A stretch of DNA of 21,547 bases, from IMG/VR virus record IMGVR_UViG_3300046512_000082, positions 1-21,547 of that record; one strand, given 5' to 3'. The position numbers and the translations under genes are program-made. Under the pieces are notes generated by a model. That model was given only the letters and a program-made list of their open reading frames with translations. It was not told where the DNA came from and did not search any database. Each line of letters opens with the position of its first letter. Position 1 is the stretch's first letter. Source of the DNA: a virus. This document shows, piece after piece, positions 14,680-21,073 of the stretch.

Positions 14680-16143
14680 TTACCAGTCAACGATCCGGGC
14701 TTTACGGGGACCGAGAAGTTCGTTGAAGGCGTCGGCTGCGGCGTCGACCTGGTCGTCATGGACGCCAAGCGGAAACATCGACAGTTCGTCGGTGAAGCAC
14801 TCATTCCAGTGCCCCTTCACGAGCTTCACGTTCCGTCCTTCGCACTGCGCAGCGAATGCGGCAGCGCGGATCTCTTTCGAGCCGGTGGGACGTTGAGCTT
14901 TGATTTTGTAGCCGGCGAGCCGGCGGATGAAGTTCTGGGCCTGGGCGACGCCGGCCTGTCCTGGGTCCTGCGGGATCACGATCTGGACCGACCGACCGTC
15001 ACTGCGAGCGGTGTCCTGGATCTTCTTCTCGACTTCGAGTGGAGAGCCGCGAAAGCGGATCACGTTCTCGATGTAGAAGATGCCTTCCGTGTCCTTCGAC
15101 ATCAGAACGCCGACAGTCCAGTCGCCGTCCTTCGACGCCGCCAAGTCCCATGCCCGCACGCGAACGCGCTTGGCCGGGATCTCCTTCGGCGCCTCGAACC
15201 ACGAAGCCTGGAACATGCCGCCATCGGCGGCCATCGGACGCTGCTGATACAGCGCGGAGAACGAGCGCTCGCCCATAACCTCCTGACGATCCATCAGCGC
15301 TTCGTACGAAAACCGGTTCGGCGCGAGTGGCTCGGTCGGCTTGCGGCGCAGCGGGTCGTTCGGCACCGTGCCATCCTCGTTAAGGATGATGGTGGAGGTG
15401 CCGTCCTCGTGTTTGATCTTCTTGGGCTCGGGCAGTGCCGGCAGCAGGAGGATTTCCCAGGGGAGACCCTTGCCTTCGTTCATCATCTCGATGAGACGGC
15501 CGGCGATGTCGTCGTAGTGCCAGCGCGTGAGCGTCAGAACGATGGCCGCGTCTTCTTCAAGACGGGTGTAGACGACGTCTCGGTACCAATCCCATTGATC
15601 CTCGCGGAAGCCAGCGCTTTCAACTTCCTTTCGATCCTTGATCGGATCGTCGATGAGGAAGAGATGGGCGCCCTTACCGGTGGTGCCTGAACCGACACCG
15701 ACCGCGTAGTACTGGCCGCCCTGCTCCAGCTGCCAATCGTCGGCAGCGCGCTGGTCGGATCGGATGCGGATATCCGGGAATAGCCGGGCAAACTCCTTGC
15801 CCTTGATGATGTCGCGGACGTTTCGGCCGAATGAGGTCGCGAAGTCTGCGTTGTACGATGCGCTGATGATGTTCTTGTCGGGGTTCCTCGCCATGAAGTA
15901 GGCGGGGAAGCGGCGCGTAGACAGCTCGGACTTGCCGTGCCGTGGCGGCGCGAAGATCATGAGACGCTTGATCTCGCCGCGCTCGACCGCCTCCAACTTC
16001 TCTGCAACGAGATGATGGAAGGGGTCGGCGTAATATTTGGCGAGGGTGTACTCGGTGAAGCCGATGAGGTTTTCACGACCTCTCCGACGACGCAGGATCT
16101 CGGCCGCCGCCTCCTCGGGGGAGACGTCGGTATATGGGTTCAC
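14680..16143 (-). CDS. terL: Terminase large subunit
   Basis: 487 residues; GTG start at 16143 with only a weak GAGAA upstream. ATPase: Walker A APPRHGKS (65-72), Walker B LFLIDDP (161-167), and a coupling motif LTLTRWHYD (203-211). RNase H-like nuclease: D333 in RAWDLAAS, D393 in PQDPGQAG, and the D463-D467 group in VHDDQVDAAADAF. These are the expected metal ligands and suggest an active enzyme. The C-terminal part resembles the psiM2-type putative large terminase family (TIGR01630). It cuts concatemers and drives DNA into the head. It is separated from the small subunit gene by two SGNH hydrolase genes (about 3.0 kb), which is unusual. Confidence 0.96.
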   Translation of the reverse strand: MNPYTDVSPEEAAAEILRRRRGRENLIGFTEYTLAKYYADPFHHLVAEKLEAVERGEIKRLMIFAPPRHGKSELSTRRFPAYFMARNPDKNIISASYNADFATSFGRNVRDIIKGKEFARLFPDIRIRSDQRAADDWQLEQGGQYYAVGVGSGTTGKGAHLFLIDDPIKDRKEVESAGFREDQWDWYRDVVYTRLEEDAAIVLTLTRWHYDDIAGRLIEMMNEGKGLPWEILLLPALPEPKKIKHEDGTSTIILNEDGTVPNDPLRRKPTEPLAPNRFSYEALMDRQEVMGERSFSALYQQRPMAADGGMFQASWFEAPKEIPAKRVRVRAWDLAASKDGDWTVGVLMSKDTEGIFYIENVIRFRGSPLEVEKKIQDTARSDGRSVQIVIPQDPGQAGVAQAQNFIRRLAGYKIKAQRPTGSKEIRAAAFAAQCEGRNVKLVKGHWNECFTDELSMFPLGVHDDQVDAAADAFNELLGPRKARIVDW

Positions 16144-16225
16144 GATGTTCTCGTAGGTTTAGACTCCGGCCGCGGCCTTGCGGCTAACACCCCCGAAGCG
16201 GTGACTTGGCCAGAGTGATTGGGCC
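16144..16225 (-). other. Intergenic leader of terL with short stem-loops
   Basis: 82 bp gap, the largest inside this gene group. The minus strand carries GCCGC-AAGGCC-GCGGC (16169-16184) and a short CACC/GGTG pair. No T-run and no clear -35/-10 boxes are visible, so no terminator or promoter is called. Confidence 0.4.
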
Positions 16226-17965
16226 TTACTGGCCAGCAGGCACCTTGCGAACGTAAGGACGTCCGAAGGTCACGTCGGCAGCGACAGCGCCGGCAGCGAA
16301 CGTCAGGTAGGCCTGAAAGCTCGTCGAGGCGTCGGTGCCAGCCAGTGGCGCGGTGATGGGCGTACGCAGCGTGCCGGACAGCGCCCCTGCCCCGTCCATA
16401 ACGACGCTTGCAGTTGAGCTGGGCGACAGAGCGGTGTCACAGGACAGCGACAGGGCGCGGAGGCCTGCGTGACCCGCAGCGAGAGTGAAGTCGATACACG
16501 CCTCGACCTGATCGCCGGCGATGCCGGAATAGGCCGCGGTGTTCTGGAAGTTGACCAGACGGCCAGCCGCATTGCTCGTGCCGGAGACGACGATCTTCTG
16601 AGCGGCAGCGCCGTTCAGCGTGGTCTTCGAGGCGACGATGGTCATGGCGCCGTTTTCGGTCAGCGTCCAGGTGTCGGCCACTTCTCCGGTCGGAGCGGTC
16701 GTGCCAGACTTTGTGCCGGTCGTGCCGGTCAGTGCCGGGTTGCGGCTCACGCCAACGAGCAGGTTGCTCGCATCGAGATACAGGTCGTTCAGCGTCGAGG
16801 TCTGCTGCATCAGCGTGTTGGCGACCGCCGCGATCCCATCGCCGAGCTTGATGGCGCCCAGCCAGTTCGGGTGCAGCTGGTCACCCATATCCGTTGCCGG
16901 AACGATGACGCTTTCCATGTCGACGACGTGGATCTTGTACTTGTAGGCGGCCAGATCCGGGTCGGTGAAGAAATTTCCGATCAGATTATTCAGCGTGACG
17001 CGGTCAGCCTTACGAGCGGCGGAAAGAGCATTCCACGTCGCGTCGCTGCGGGGCAGAACCTTGATCGCGATGACGTGCTTGGCGCCGCCGTCGATGTAGG
17101 CCTTCCAACAGGTCTTCAGGTTGTTGTAGATCACTGCTGGCGTGTCGGCGCTGCCGGTGAGGTCGTTGGTGCCGGCGAGCAGCGAGACCAACATGGGAGA
17201 CAGAGCGACGACACTCGCGGTCTGGAGGGCCATAGCTGCCGCGGTCTCGCCGCCGGTGGCCTTGTTGTAGCCAAAGGGCAGGAAGAACCGTCCGCGGGTC
17301 TTGTTGATGAACTGCCAGAGCCAGGTCGGACCGTTGGAGCCAGCAGTGATGCTGTCACCCTCCGCGACGAAGCGGGCATTCAGGGCCTGCAGCGCGACGG
17401 TGGTCGTGATTGCGATGACCGAGGACTTGGGCGAGTTGGTGCCGAGGACGTTGCTTTCCGTGATCGTGTAGTTGACAGATCCTGGCGCCGAGGCGGAGAT
17501 CCCGACCACGAGAGCGGACTGGTCTGCATTGAAGGTCACGCGACCATCGTTCGGCGAGATCGACAGGACCGATCCGGGCGTCTTGCCGACGATGTTTCCG
17601 ATCACCGTGCCGGCAGCGGCGGTCTCGACGAAGGTGGAAGCGGATAGCGTCAGGGTGCCGAGCGCGACGGGAAGACGCGGAACAACGGACGACTTCGCCC
17701 CGATGATACCAGCCCATGTGATGATGGAGCCGCCAGCGGGCGCCGTGGTGAAGGTGAAGGACCATTCGCCCTTCGAGTTCGCGGTGGCAGTGCCGGCCGA
17801 GGTGCCATCCTTGTACACGGTGACGGTGGACCCGGCCTTTACGCCGAAGCCAAGCCAGGTTTTGTTGTCGAGCGAGCCCGGCATGGCCGGCTCAAGGATC
17901 TGCAAGATCGGCTTGCGGCTGCCGTACAGACGCCACTGACCTTTGCGGAATTTGGAAATAGCCAT
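16226..17965 (-). CDS. Multidomain SGNH/GDSL hydrolase with Ig-like domains, 579 aa
   Basis: SGNH blocks: GDSITAG (G203 D204 S205), block III GTND (N267) and block V DQLHPN (D362, H365). The Ser-His-Asp set and the oxyanion Asn are all present. The N-terminus (20-95) looks like a bacterial Ig-like domain (GSTVTVYKDGTSAGTATANS then WSFTFTT); 100-190 is a second beta domain with NYTITESNVLGTNSP; 400-579 is a beta sandwich of the carbohydrate-binding kind. The domain set suggests a hydrolase held on a surface polymer. Likely substrates are O-acyl groups on capsule or exopolysaccharide, by analogy with phage tail esterases. It has no Sec signal peptide. It lies 25 bp after a second, different SGNH gene and upstream of terL. 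Confidence 0.88.
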   Translation of the reverse strand: MAISKFRKGQWRLYGSRKPILQILEPAMPGSLDNKTWLGFGVKAGSTVTVYKDGTSAGTATANSKGEWSFTFTTAPAGGSIITWAGIIGAKSSVVPRLPVALGTLTLSASTFVETAAAGTVIGNIVGKTPGSVLSISPNDGRVTFNADQSALVVGISASAPGSVNYTITESNVLGTNSPKSSVIAITTTVALQALNARFVAEGDSITAGSNGPTWLWQFINKTRGRFFLPFGYNKATGGETAAAMALQTASVVALSPMLVSLLAGTNDLTGSADTPAVIYNNLKTCWKAYIDGGAKHVIAIKVLPRSDATWNALSAARKADRVTLNNLIGNFFTDPDLAAYKYKIHVVDMESVIVPATDMGDQLHPNWLGAIKLGDGIAAVANTLMQQTSTLNDLYLDASNLLVGVSRNPALTGTTGTKSGTTAPTGEVADTWTLTENGAMTIVASKTTLNGAAAQKIVVSGTSNAAGRLVNFQNTAAYSGIAGDQVEACIDFTLAAGHAGLRALSLSCDTALSPSSTASVVMDGAGALSGTLRTPITAPLAGTDASTSFQAYLTFAAGAVAADVTFGRPYVRKVPAGQ

Positions 17966-17990
17966 CGTTTATCGATGCTTTCTTTTTTGC

Positions 17991-19148
17991 TTATTGAAGG
18001 AAAACGGGGGCGAGGTGGTTTGCCATCTCCTCGTATCCAGACCCGTTCGGGTGGATGCCGTCGAAATAGAGAGGCTCGAAGGTGCTGTAGGGACGGAACA
18101 GGCTGCTCATGTCGAAGACAGGCAAGCCGTTCGAAGCGCCGATCTCATGGATGATTGCGGCCCACTGGACCGCGAGCGCTTCATCTTCATTCACGCCTTG
18201 CGGCTCGATCATCAGCATGACGTCGCCGGAGATTTTCGCGGCGTCGATCACCTTCTGATATTCGGTCTTGAAATCTTCCGGGGTGATGCCGGTGCCGGGA
18301 TCATTCACAGTCATGGCGATTACAGTCATGTCTGGACGAAGGGCTTGTATGCCGCCGAGCGTTGCGCCCGTCAGATTGCCAATCGTGGCGCCGAACCAGC
18401 CGGCGCGCATGACGAGCACTTCAGGACGATCCGAGTTCGAGGCGATCAGGCCGCTAATCAGGCCCGCATTTGCCCAGTGCTCAACGCTGATCGTCGAGTG
18501 ACCCTGGCCAAGATCGATAGGGCTGCAAATGGTCGCGTCGCCGAAGCGCTGCGAGCTGTACATTGTCACGCTGGCAGCGGAGGGTTCTTCATCGGCGGAG
18601 ACGTAGATGCCCCATTCACCGTTGTAGATGCCCAGCACTTCGACAGTGTCGAATGCCGACGAAGGGGTGAACGAAAACTTCACGCCAGTTTCGCCGAGCG
18701 CCGCTAGGACGTTCGCGCCGATGGAGCCAAGGCTGTAATCTGTCCAGCCTCCCATATCGATGCGATTGTCGTGAGCGTGCCAGTCGGCTTCGAACTGGCC
18801 GCCGATGAACGAGTTCCAGGACGCCGGCAGCGCAGAGGCGTTCAGCTTTTCGGCGAGCTTGGTCGGATACGAGAACGCAGCGGCATTGTTCTTCTGGTAA
18901 GTGCCAGTGGTGTCGCCCGTGGCGCCGGAGCCAGCGGTGATAGAGTTTCCGACGAACAGCAGGCGTGCGTTTCCGGTGCCGCTGACCACAGCGCTCTTGG
19001 CTGCGGCCCAGCGGGCGGTGTTTGATGCCGACCAATTAGTCAGGCCACGCACATCTTTCGGCGTCTGGTGTTTAGCGCGATCCTTGCGGCTCCTGCTGGA
19101 GAACCAATAGGCAAAATAACGATTGGACTTGAAACGACCCATCCTCAT
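17991..19148 (-). CDS. SGNH/GDSL-family hydrolase, 385 aa
   Basis: The ATG at 19148 overlaps the terS stop by one base (TGATG); a second in-frame ATG is at 19142. Block I reads FVGNSITAG (nucleophile S69), so the usual GDS is GNS. Block III is TVND (N282), and block V is FDGIHPNG (D363, H366). About residues 155-235 form an inserted beta-rich region (VEVLGIYNGEWGIYVSADEE) that may bind sugar. The basic, aromatic N-terminus (KSNRYFAYWFSSRSRKDRAK) is not a signal peptide. The enzyme probably removes acyl groups from host surface glycan. It is clearly different from the SGNH protein encoded next to it, so the two may have distinct substrates. Confidence 0.88.
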   Translation of the reverse strand: MRMGRFKSNRYFAYWFSSRSRKDRAKHQTPKDVRGLTNWSASNTARWAAAKSAVVSGTGNARLLFVGNSITAGSGATGDTTGTYQKNNAAAFSYPTKLAEKLNASALPASWNSFIGGQFEADWHAHDNRIDMGGWTDYSLGSIGANVLAALGETGVKFSFTPSSAFDTVEVLGIYNGEWGIYVSADEEPSAASVTMYSSQRFGDATICSPIDLGQGHSTISVEHWANAGLISGLIASNSDRPEVLVMRAGWFGATIGNLTGATLGGIQALRPDMTVIAMTVNDPGTGITPEDFKTEYQKVIDAAKISGDVMLMIEPQGVNEDEALAVQWAAIIHEIGASNGLPVFDMSSLFRPYSTFEPLYFDGIHPNGSGYEEMANHLAPVFLQ

Positions 19149-19684
19149 CAGTGAACCGTGCCTTTCTTGTCTGGAACGGGACCGGTCGAGCGCGACGCGA
19201 TTTCGAGGAGCTGCTCCTCGGTCATCTCGGTGGCGACCTTGTTCACGTTGAGATTGGTGTGGTTCTCATCCTTCTGGGCGAGGTAGTTCTTGCCGAGGAA
19301 GATGGCCGCCGGAGCATTGCGATCGGCGAGGCCGAGCTGCTTGCGGCGAAGGGAGATCTTGGCGAACTGAATGCCGTCGTCCCACGCATTGCGTGCGTCT
19401 TCGCTGTTGGACAGGAAGGAGGCAAAGGTGCGCAGCGACACGCCGAGAACAGCCGCGGTCTCATCCTGCGTGCAGAACAGCTTGCCGAGTTCGGAGATTG
19501 TGCGGAGGGTATCCTCGTCGGCGGTAAGCAGCGTCTTACGGCGCTTGACCGGCTTGGCGAGGACTTCGTCGAGGAAGGCGCCCTCCTCTTCCTTGTTCTT
19601 CGAGGCTTCTTTGGCAGCGGCCTCGCGGGCAGCCGCCTCTTCCTTCGTCGGGCGACCCCGACGACGGGGAGGAAAGTCAGTCAT
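19148..19684 (-). CDS. terS: Terminase small subunit-like DNA-binding protein
   Basis: 178 residues. The start is PPRRRGRPTK, an AT-hook-like RGRP core, followed by an Ala/Glu/Lys-rich helix. Residues 62-110 hold a helix-turn-helix (ISELGKLFCTQDETAAVLGV then SLRTFASFLSNSEDARNAW), and KISLRRKQLGLADRNAPAAI followed by FLGKNYLAQKDE is the oligomerisation motif common in alphaproteobacterial phage small terminases. It recognises the packaging site and loads TerL. Here TerL lies about 3 kb downstream. The HTH and C-terminal motif are seen; the exact family name is inferred. Confidence 0.85.
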   Translation of the reverse strand: MTDFPPRRRGRPTKEEAAAREAAAKEASKNKEEEGAFLDEVLAKPVKRRKTLLTADEDTLRTISELGKLFCTQDETAAVLGVSLRTFASFLSNSEDARNAWDDGIQFAKISLRRKQLGLADRNAPAAIFLGKNYLAQKDENHTNLNVNKVATEMTEEQLLEIASRSTGPVPDKKGTVH

Positions 19685-20997: not shown

Positions 20998-21073
20998 TGG
21001 CTGGGAAGGCAGGACTCGAACCTGCGACTGGCGCATTAACAGTGCGCTGCTCTACCAACTGAGCTACAACCCA
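20998..21073 (-). tRNA. tRNA-Asn (anticodon GUU)
   Basis: 76 bases with encoded CCA. The D-arm GCTC-AGTTGGTA-GAGC, anticodon arm GCGCA-CTGTTAA-TGCGC (anticodon GTT) and T-arm GCAGG-TTCGAGT-CCTGC are all perfect. The acceptor stem TGGGTTG / CTTCCCA has two adjacent T-T mismatches, which is unusual. Discriminator is G. Confidence 0.9.

Follow-up and report, generated by a model that had tools for sequence, protein, structure and literature searches.

The interval between the genes of the small and large terminase subunits (terS and terL) is a variable cargo (moron) slot in the phage group represented by a 21.5-kb virus record. In this record, which was analysed over its full length of 21,547 nucleotides and is called the window below, the slot is occupied by two genes, A and B, whose products look, to judge from their sequences, like distantly related and catalytically competent SGNH esterases. 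We favour, with moderate confidence, the reading that both are O-acyl esterases directed at acylated host-surface glycans, carried as slot cargo, probably made late and acting outside the cell, either on the virion or after lysis.

The variable terS-terL slot

All structural genes of the window lie on its minus strand (Table 1). The gene order runs from a tRNA-Asn through a holin-like gene (so labelled solely from its hydrophobic segments), a thioredoxin-like gene, terS, A, B, terL, portal, a scaffold-like gene and capsid to Mu-like tail genes, baseplate J, tail protein I and a 751-aa protein, which matches a PHROG without known function and is perhaps, judged by its position, the tail fibre. 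Profile matches make the identification of TerL firm, as they do that of the portal (PHROG and Pfam). PHROG 309, 'terminase small subunit', is matched by seven of the eight TerS family members, with a best E value of 2.1e-6 and matches counted at the permissive limit of E <= 1; the window protein alone reaches E 0.0027, so that the assignment draws on the family as a whole rather than on this one sequence. The window TerL is 82% identical to that of the Bradyrhizobium phage BDU-MI-1, and this likeness makes Bradyrhizobium the probable host.

Table 1. Features of the terminase region and their positions (window numbering unless a locus is named)
Feature	Position	Strand	Size and basis
terS	19148-19684	minus	178 aa; PHROG 309 terminase small subunit
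SGNH hydrolase A	17991-19148	minus	385 aa; Pfam Lipase_GDSL_2, conserved residues, dN/dS
Putative insert in SGNH core of A	18429-18806	minus	~residues 115-240; CBM35-like by analogy with Ape1
SGNH hydrolase B	16226-17965	minus	579 aa; Lipase_GDSL_2 1.6e-11, PHROG 6102 3.7e-61
Ig-like domain of B	17702-17878	minus	~residues 30-88; Big_6 0.00069 and GxPGS_dom 9.4e-5, both below curated cut-off; strands in model
Middle domain of B	17387-17662	minus	~residues 102-193; tblastn 38% identity, E 1e-6
SGNH core of B	16799-17380	minus	~residues 196-389; CE3 esterase 5b5s match
C-terminal beta-sandwich of B (predicted)	16241-16720	minus	~residues 416-575; model strands, Foldseek
terL-proximal intergenic stretch	16144-16225	minus	mostly conserved whatever the cargo (alignment of 13 loci)
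terL	14680-16143	minus	487 aa; PHROG 38 at 3.3e-109, Pfam Terminase_6C
tRNA-Asn(GTT)	20998-21073; L015 3087-3162; L024 14287-14362		

Relatives were gathered by their TerL, with BDU-MI-1 added, which gave 29 contigs carrying both terS and terL (window included; not dereplicated, several near-identical). Between conserved flanking genes, the terS-terL interval ranges from about 200 to 3,325 bp. It measures about 200-300 bp and holds no protein gene in five contigs, and extends over about 1-3.3 kb in the other 24, so that the adjacency of terS and terL, taken as normal in the original prediction, does not describe this group. At least six kinds of cargo were encountered. Genes for a ParA-like ATPase, for AAA_28 kinase-like and SNase-like proteins, for a 73-aa protein, for tRNA-Cys or tRNA-Gly and for SGNH B occur in different combinations; locus L062 carries a hydrolase of PHROG 16653 with a further match to a tail-fibre family, and L067 a P-loop ATPase that is PhoH-like by eye. 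The commonest cargo, a P-loop protein of ParA/CbiA-like type, has a proline-rich N-terminus (5584-6432 of L010, with homologues in most relatives; 8752-9783 of L024). SGNH B was found in the slot of three relatives; the order terS-SGNH-SGNH-terL, with A and B together, occurred among the 29 contigs in the window only.

The position of the two hydrolases had originally been considered unexpected, a view that is difficult to maintain since the slot is variable in this group and since other phages carry such hydrolases close to their head, tail and lysis genes. Phages commonly have cargo inserted among their structural genes. A packaging role deduced from the position was rejected, because the interval of five contigs is free of protein genes and its content is variable. 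Neither a description of the variable slot of this phage group nor anything useful on a terS-esterase-terL order was found in the open-access papers searched, and no SGNH or lipase appears in a paper on 16 Bradyrhizobium phages. Two short-pattern scans of bacterial genomes, by which close relatives only would be caught, detected no copies of TerL or A.

Non-coding elements are conserved in the same interval. In the alignment of 13 loci, the terL-proximal stretch is common to the window and seven others (L014, L015, L016, L018, L019, L020 and L024). Its element of about 70 nt, CACTCTG..C.AGT..CCGCTTCGGGG...GGAGTCTAAAC, stands directly 5' of terL irrespective of the cargo and could be a promoter, a leader or a packaging site. 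A second element, ...GACGGGATCGATCGTGGCAG...AAGTCCTGA...CAGGACGATCC...TTGGCCAG.GGGCGTGGGGTC, lies in the terS-terL interval of L016, L020, L022, L006, L009 and L024, seems absent from the window and matched no Rfam family at the gathering threshold. In the window and in L015, the tRNA-Asn(GTT) precedes the holin-like gene; most relatives have it between the portal and scaffold-like genes, from which it follows that this tRNA has moved. The skipping-rope RNA family (RF02924) matches right after a tRNA-Met in L016 (1104-1218) and L020 (1826-1940), and none was found in the window.

Catalytic residues and folds of A and B

Both proteins match the Pfam family Lipase_GDSL_2 above its curated cut-off of 32.9 bits (A with 64.2 bits and E 2.9e-17, B with 45.5 bits). 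B is also matched over its full length by PHROG 6102 (profile positions 24-440 of 442), to which A shows a partial match only (6.3e-8). The genes lie where they had been predicted and the catalytic sets are exactly as proposed, namely S69, N282, D363 and H366 with the block I motif GNS in A, and S205, N267, D362 and H365 with GDS in B; to these can be added a glycine of block II, G253 in A and G239 in B, and the sets occupy blocks I, II, III and V. All these residues, glycines included, are fully conserved among the four A-type sequences, and across 17 B-type sequences they are invariant or nearly so. Compared with the closest relative, dN/dS is about 0.23 in the core of A (0.114/0.495) and about 0.13 in B (0.062/0.485), which indicates that both genes are under purifying selection. 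Profile matches, conserved residues and selection together bear out the claim of two dissimilar hydrolases with complete catalytic sets. A comparison of A with B gave a BLASTP E value of 0.035; an origin as recent tandem duplicates was rejected because the similarity is limited to short motifs and the domain plans differ, and gene decay was rejected because dN/dS is low and the catalytic blocks are intact.

The model of B has a mean pLDDT of 62.9 and is usable for the core and the C-terminal domain. The core matches the CE3 esterase 5b5s (Z 22.1, rmsd 2.2, 179 aligned residues) and is also like other SGNH esterases and O-acetylesterases (Z ~18-22). Foldseek returned for B a hyaluronan-binding module (4d0q) and the tailspike structures 8iq5, 7xyc and 5w6h (Klebsiella, CBA120); the output comes without ranges, and the beta-sandwich matches were assigned to residues 416-575 by match length. 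On this model, the C-terminal domain would be a beta-sandwich of glycan-binding type. Among viral structures, B is matched best by phage GDSL lipases and by a Vibrio tail fibre; the PP99 tailspike ranks below them. Its middle domain recurs in Rhizobium phage proteins and, in RHph_Y68, stands immediately ahead of a pectin-lyase-fold protein. The 'lipases' of PHROG 6102 (for example gp167 of the Otagovirus phiPsa374) and the nickie-type GDSL lipases combine an SGNH core with a C-terminal beta-sandwich at the same length as B, although the identity to B is about 20-30%. In phiPsa374, gp167 is followed by genes for minor tail and head-fibre proteins, in a position upstream of terL; nickie encodes three GDSL lipases grouped around a particle-associated lyase, ahead of the holin and lysozyme genes. 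In the Rhizobium phage PPF1, a sialate O-acetylesterase and an SGNH hydrolase precede the endolysin. More than one SGNH protein or esterase per phage is thus already known from nickie and PPF1, and the enzyme types of A and B are known in phages.

A was modelled with four homologues, and its model is of low confidence (mean pLDDT 48), so that the matches serve as leads. The first of them is the peptidoglycan O-acetylesterase Ape1 (Z 17.1, 278 aligned residues, residues 34-385 of A), followed by the next family at Z 14.3 and the tail fibre G7C gp63.1 (4qnl) at Z 13.7. Like the predicted A, Ape1 (4k3u, 8gkd, 8gld) carries a beta domain inserted between blocks I and II of the SGNH core; the identity is 13-14% on this low-confidence model, and A differs in being a phage gene product without a signal peptide. 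In their order and spacing, the residues of gonococcal Ape (S80, G236, N268, D366 and H369) parallel those of A, and so does its insert, located at 104-221 in the solved enzyme (PMC6174289). The Pfam core match within A begins only at residue 229, and the pLDDT of the putative insert is mostly below 50. There are few relatives of A in named phages, and only Gordonia phages were matched across most of its length. Their hydrolases (for example DumpsterDude gp31) share about 29% identity with residues 36-377 of A and possess all catalytic residues; they come from phages of actinobacterial hosts, where their genes come after those of a cutinase and a minor tail protein.

The differing domain plans of the original prediction are recovered in the Ig-like N-terminus of B, and in the insert of A and the C-terminal beta domain of B, which appear as gaps or extensions around the Pfam core and as predicted folds. 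The structure prediction and fold search proposed at the outset cover the core and C-terminal domain of B, and provide a low-confidence model only for A. The expectation of esterases with extra domains agrees with the intact catalytic sets, the glycan-binding-type appendages and the nearest solved folds of A and B, among which are O-acetylesterases of carbohydrate and of peptidoglycan and, in the case of A, SGNH tail-fibre proteins of phages. G7C gp63.1 and Aristophanes gp41 share the SGNH fold with A and B but are large tail proteins, whereas A and B are smaller, separate proteins in which searches of Pfam, PHROGs and NCBIfam recognised neither a virion-anchor or particle-binding domain nor a fusion to a tail protein. 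A hydrophobic N-terminal segment was found in neither.

Relocation between the slot and the tail region

Relatives of A and B adjoin tailspike, tail-fibre, head or other structural genes, and relocation between loci is evident. In L015 (contig G003), the slot contains B, whereas A is found about 5.5 kb ahead of terL, on the upstream side of the holin-like gene. The slot of BDU-MI-1 holds, directly after terS, a relative of B (ARQ95357.1, hypothetical protein) that is 61% identical to B residues 192-577, lacks the 190-residue N-terminal part of B, has a leader like that of A instead and is followed by three further cargo genes; a second, different SGNH and a PHROG 16653 protein are encoded upstream of the tail fibre. 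The slot hydrolase of L062 belongs to the same family as this PHROG 16653 protein (24% identity), and both A and the PHROG 16653 hydrolase family are found in the slot as well as upstream near tail genes. Contig G006 has a B-family SGNH about 7 kb ahead of terL, and in G008 and G009 such a gene stands immediately before that of a 1060-aa protein; the N-terminus of this protein in G008 matches the solved tailspikes 4ru5 and 4ru4. The second SGNH of BDU-MI-1 (L080, 7452-8756; record positions 91451-92755) matches PHROG 9703, 'head decoration', at 1.1e-8, a hint that some such esterases may decorate capsids.

Between the window and L015, the synonymous divergence of A and B (0.49 each) is lower than that of the backbone genes terL (0.74), portal (0.79) and terS (1.14), which suggests an exchange after the backbones had diverged. 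Judged by these sequence comparisons, A and B behave as exchangeable cargo. The start of A overlaps the stop of terS (TGATG), and the same overlap exists in BDU-MI-1. The leader of A and that of the SGNH in the BDU-MI-1 slot are alike (score 50, shuffle P 2e-4), and the homology between A and its relative begins only near residue 33, which fits a recombination joint. The leader of B is unlike those two (P 0.16-0.5), the relative of A in L002 carries a different one, and a search of phage records for the A-type leader gave no other credible match. The idea that all slot genes bear a common N-terminal tag was rejected, as the leader is common only to A and the BDU-MI-1 SGNH. It seems improbable that Bradyrhizobium phages maintain the slot specifically to swap glycan-active, virion-attached enzymes with a distant tailspike locus, with the N-terminal leader as a shared attachment tag and two complementary esterases on each particle.

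Proposed function and alternatives

As O-acyl esterases of host-surface glycans, A and B would remove O-acyl groups, most likely O-acetyl groups, and each would consist of an SGNH core and a glycan-binding-type domain, inserted in A and C-terminal in B. It is the predicted folds and these domains that point to O-acyl groups on glycans. The location of A and B in the run of packaging and structural genes and the overlap of A with terS suggest that both are probably made late. Since A and B have no export signal, they would probably reach a surface polymer outside the cell only, either by being carried on the virion or by release when the cell lyses. Acyl removal might help the phage to bind or cross the exopolysaccharide, or free the progeny from debris. 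In B. diazoefficiens USDA110, the sugars of the exopolysaccharide are mannose, glucose, galacturonic acid and either galactose or 4-O-methylgalactose, and its gene cluster has a predicted acyltransferase (PMC8707904), which makes an acylated exopolysaccharide a plausible target by analogy. Precedents are a nickie-type phage GDSL lipase, for which esterase activity on C2-C10 substrates was reported (PMC12173070), and the Peru-2 and Aristophanes enzymes considered below. Counting against this reading are the low confidence of the A model, the lack of a recognised virion-anchor domain in A and B, the filing of PHROG 6102 under moron/host takeover, the other slot genes (ParA-like, kinase-like and SNase-like), which are not virion-type, and the action of Ape1, the best match of A, on peptidoglycan.

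A narrower form of the same explanation, which differs from it by location only and which we entertain tentatively, holds that A and B are never virion parts, but are freed at lysis and loosen the exopolysaccharide for the progeny. It is consistent with the lack of a recognised virion anchor and with the lysis-cassette role that has been proposed for the nickie-type lipase, in a paper that also cites a lysate-released Bacillus phage enzyme (PMC12173070). However, relatives adjoin tailspike or tail-fibre genes, and a GDSL esterase is abundant in purified Peru-2 virions (PMC13320782, preprint).

Peptidoglycan as the target of A is a serious rival on the structural model, even if we consider it unlikely. 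A, perhaps not B, would then be a peptidoglycan O-acetylesterase that clears, during lysis, the O-acetyl groups that block the endolysin. The lead of Ape1 over the next family along almost the whole chain of A and the parallel in residues and insert speak for this role, as do the holin-like gene that lies close to A both in the window and in L015 and the position of its Gordonia relatives a few genes after endolysin and holin. Against it stand the low confidence of the A model and the experimental deacetylation of capsule by the SGNH tailspike Aristophanes gp41 (PMC8471582), for whose SGNH domain Ape had served as the model; no endolysin gene was recognised near A. An intracellular role as metabolic or host-takeover esterases or thioesterases, with which the category of PHROG 6102, the other slot occupants and the missing export signal would agree, is quite doubtful given the glycan-binding-type appendages predicted in B and probably in A, the relatives beside tailspikes and tail fibres and the nearest characterised folds, which act on extracellular glycans. 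Relatives that carry both genes as ordinary metabolic genes, the case that had been named against the original prediction, were not seen, yet the remaining cargo of the slot is not virion-type.

The analysis documents a variable terS-terL cargo slot in a little-studied group of soil phages and is a warning that function should not be read from a location beside terminase genes. It adds two candidate esterases, one of them (A) with an Ape1-like plan, to the set of tools with a possible action on the surface polysaccharide of rhizobia. If A and B indeed remove acyl groups from the exopolysaccharide of a soybean symbiont, as the favoured reading proposes, they would provide a handle on the passage of phages through that layer.
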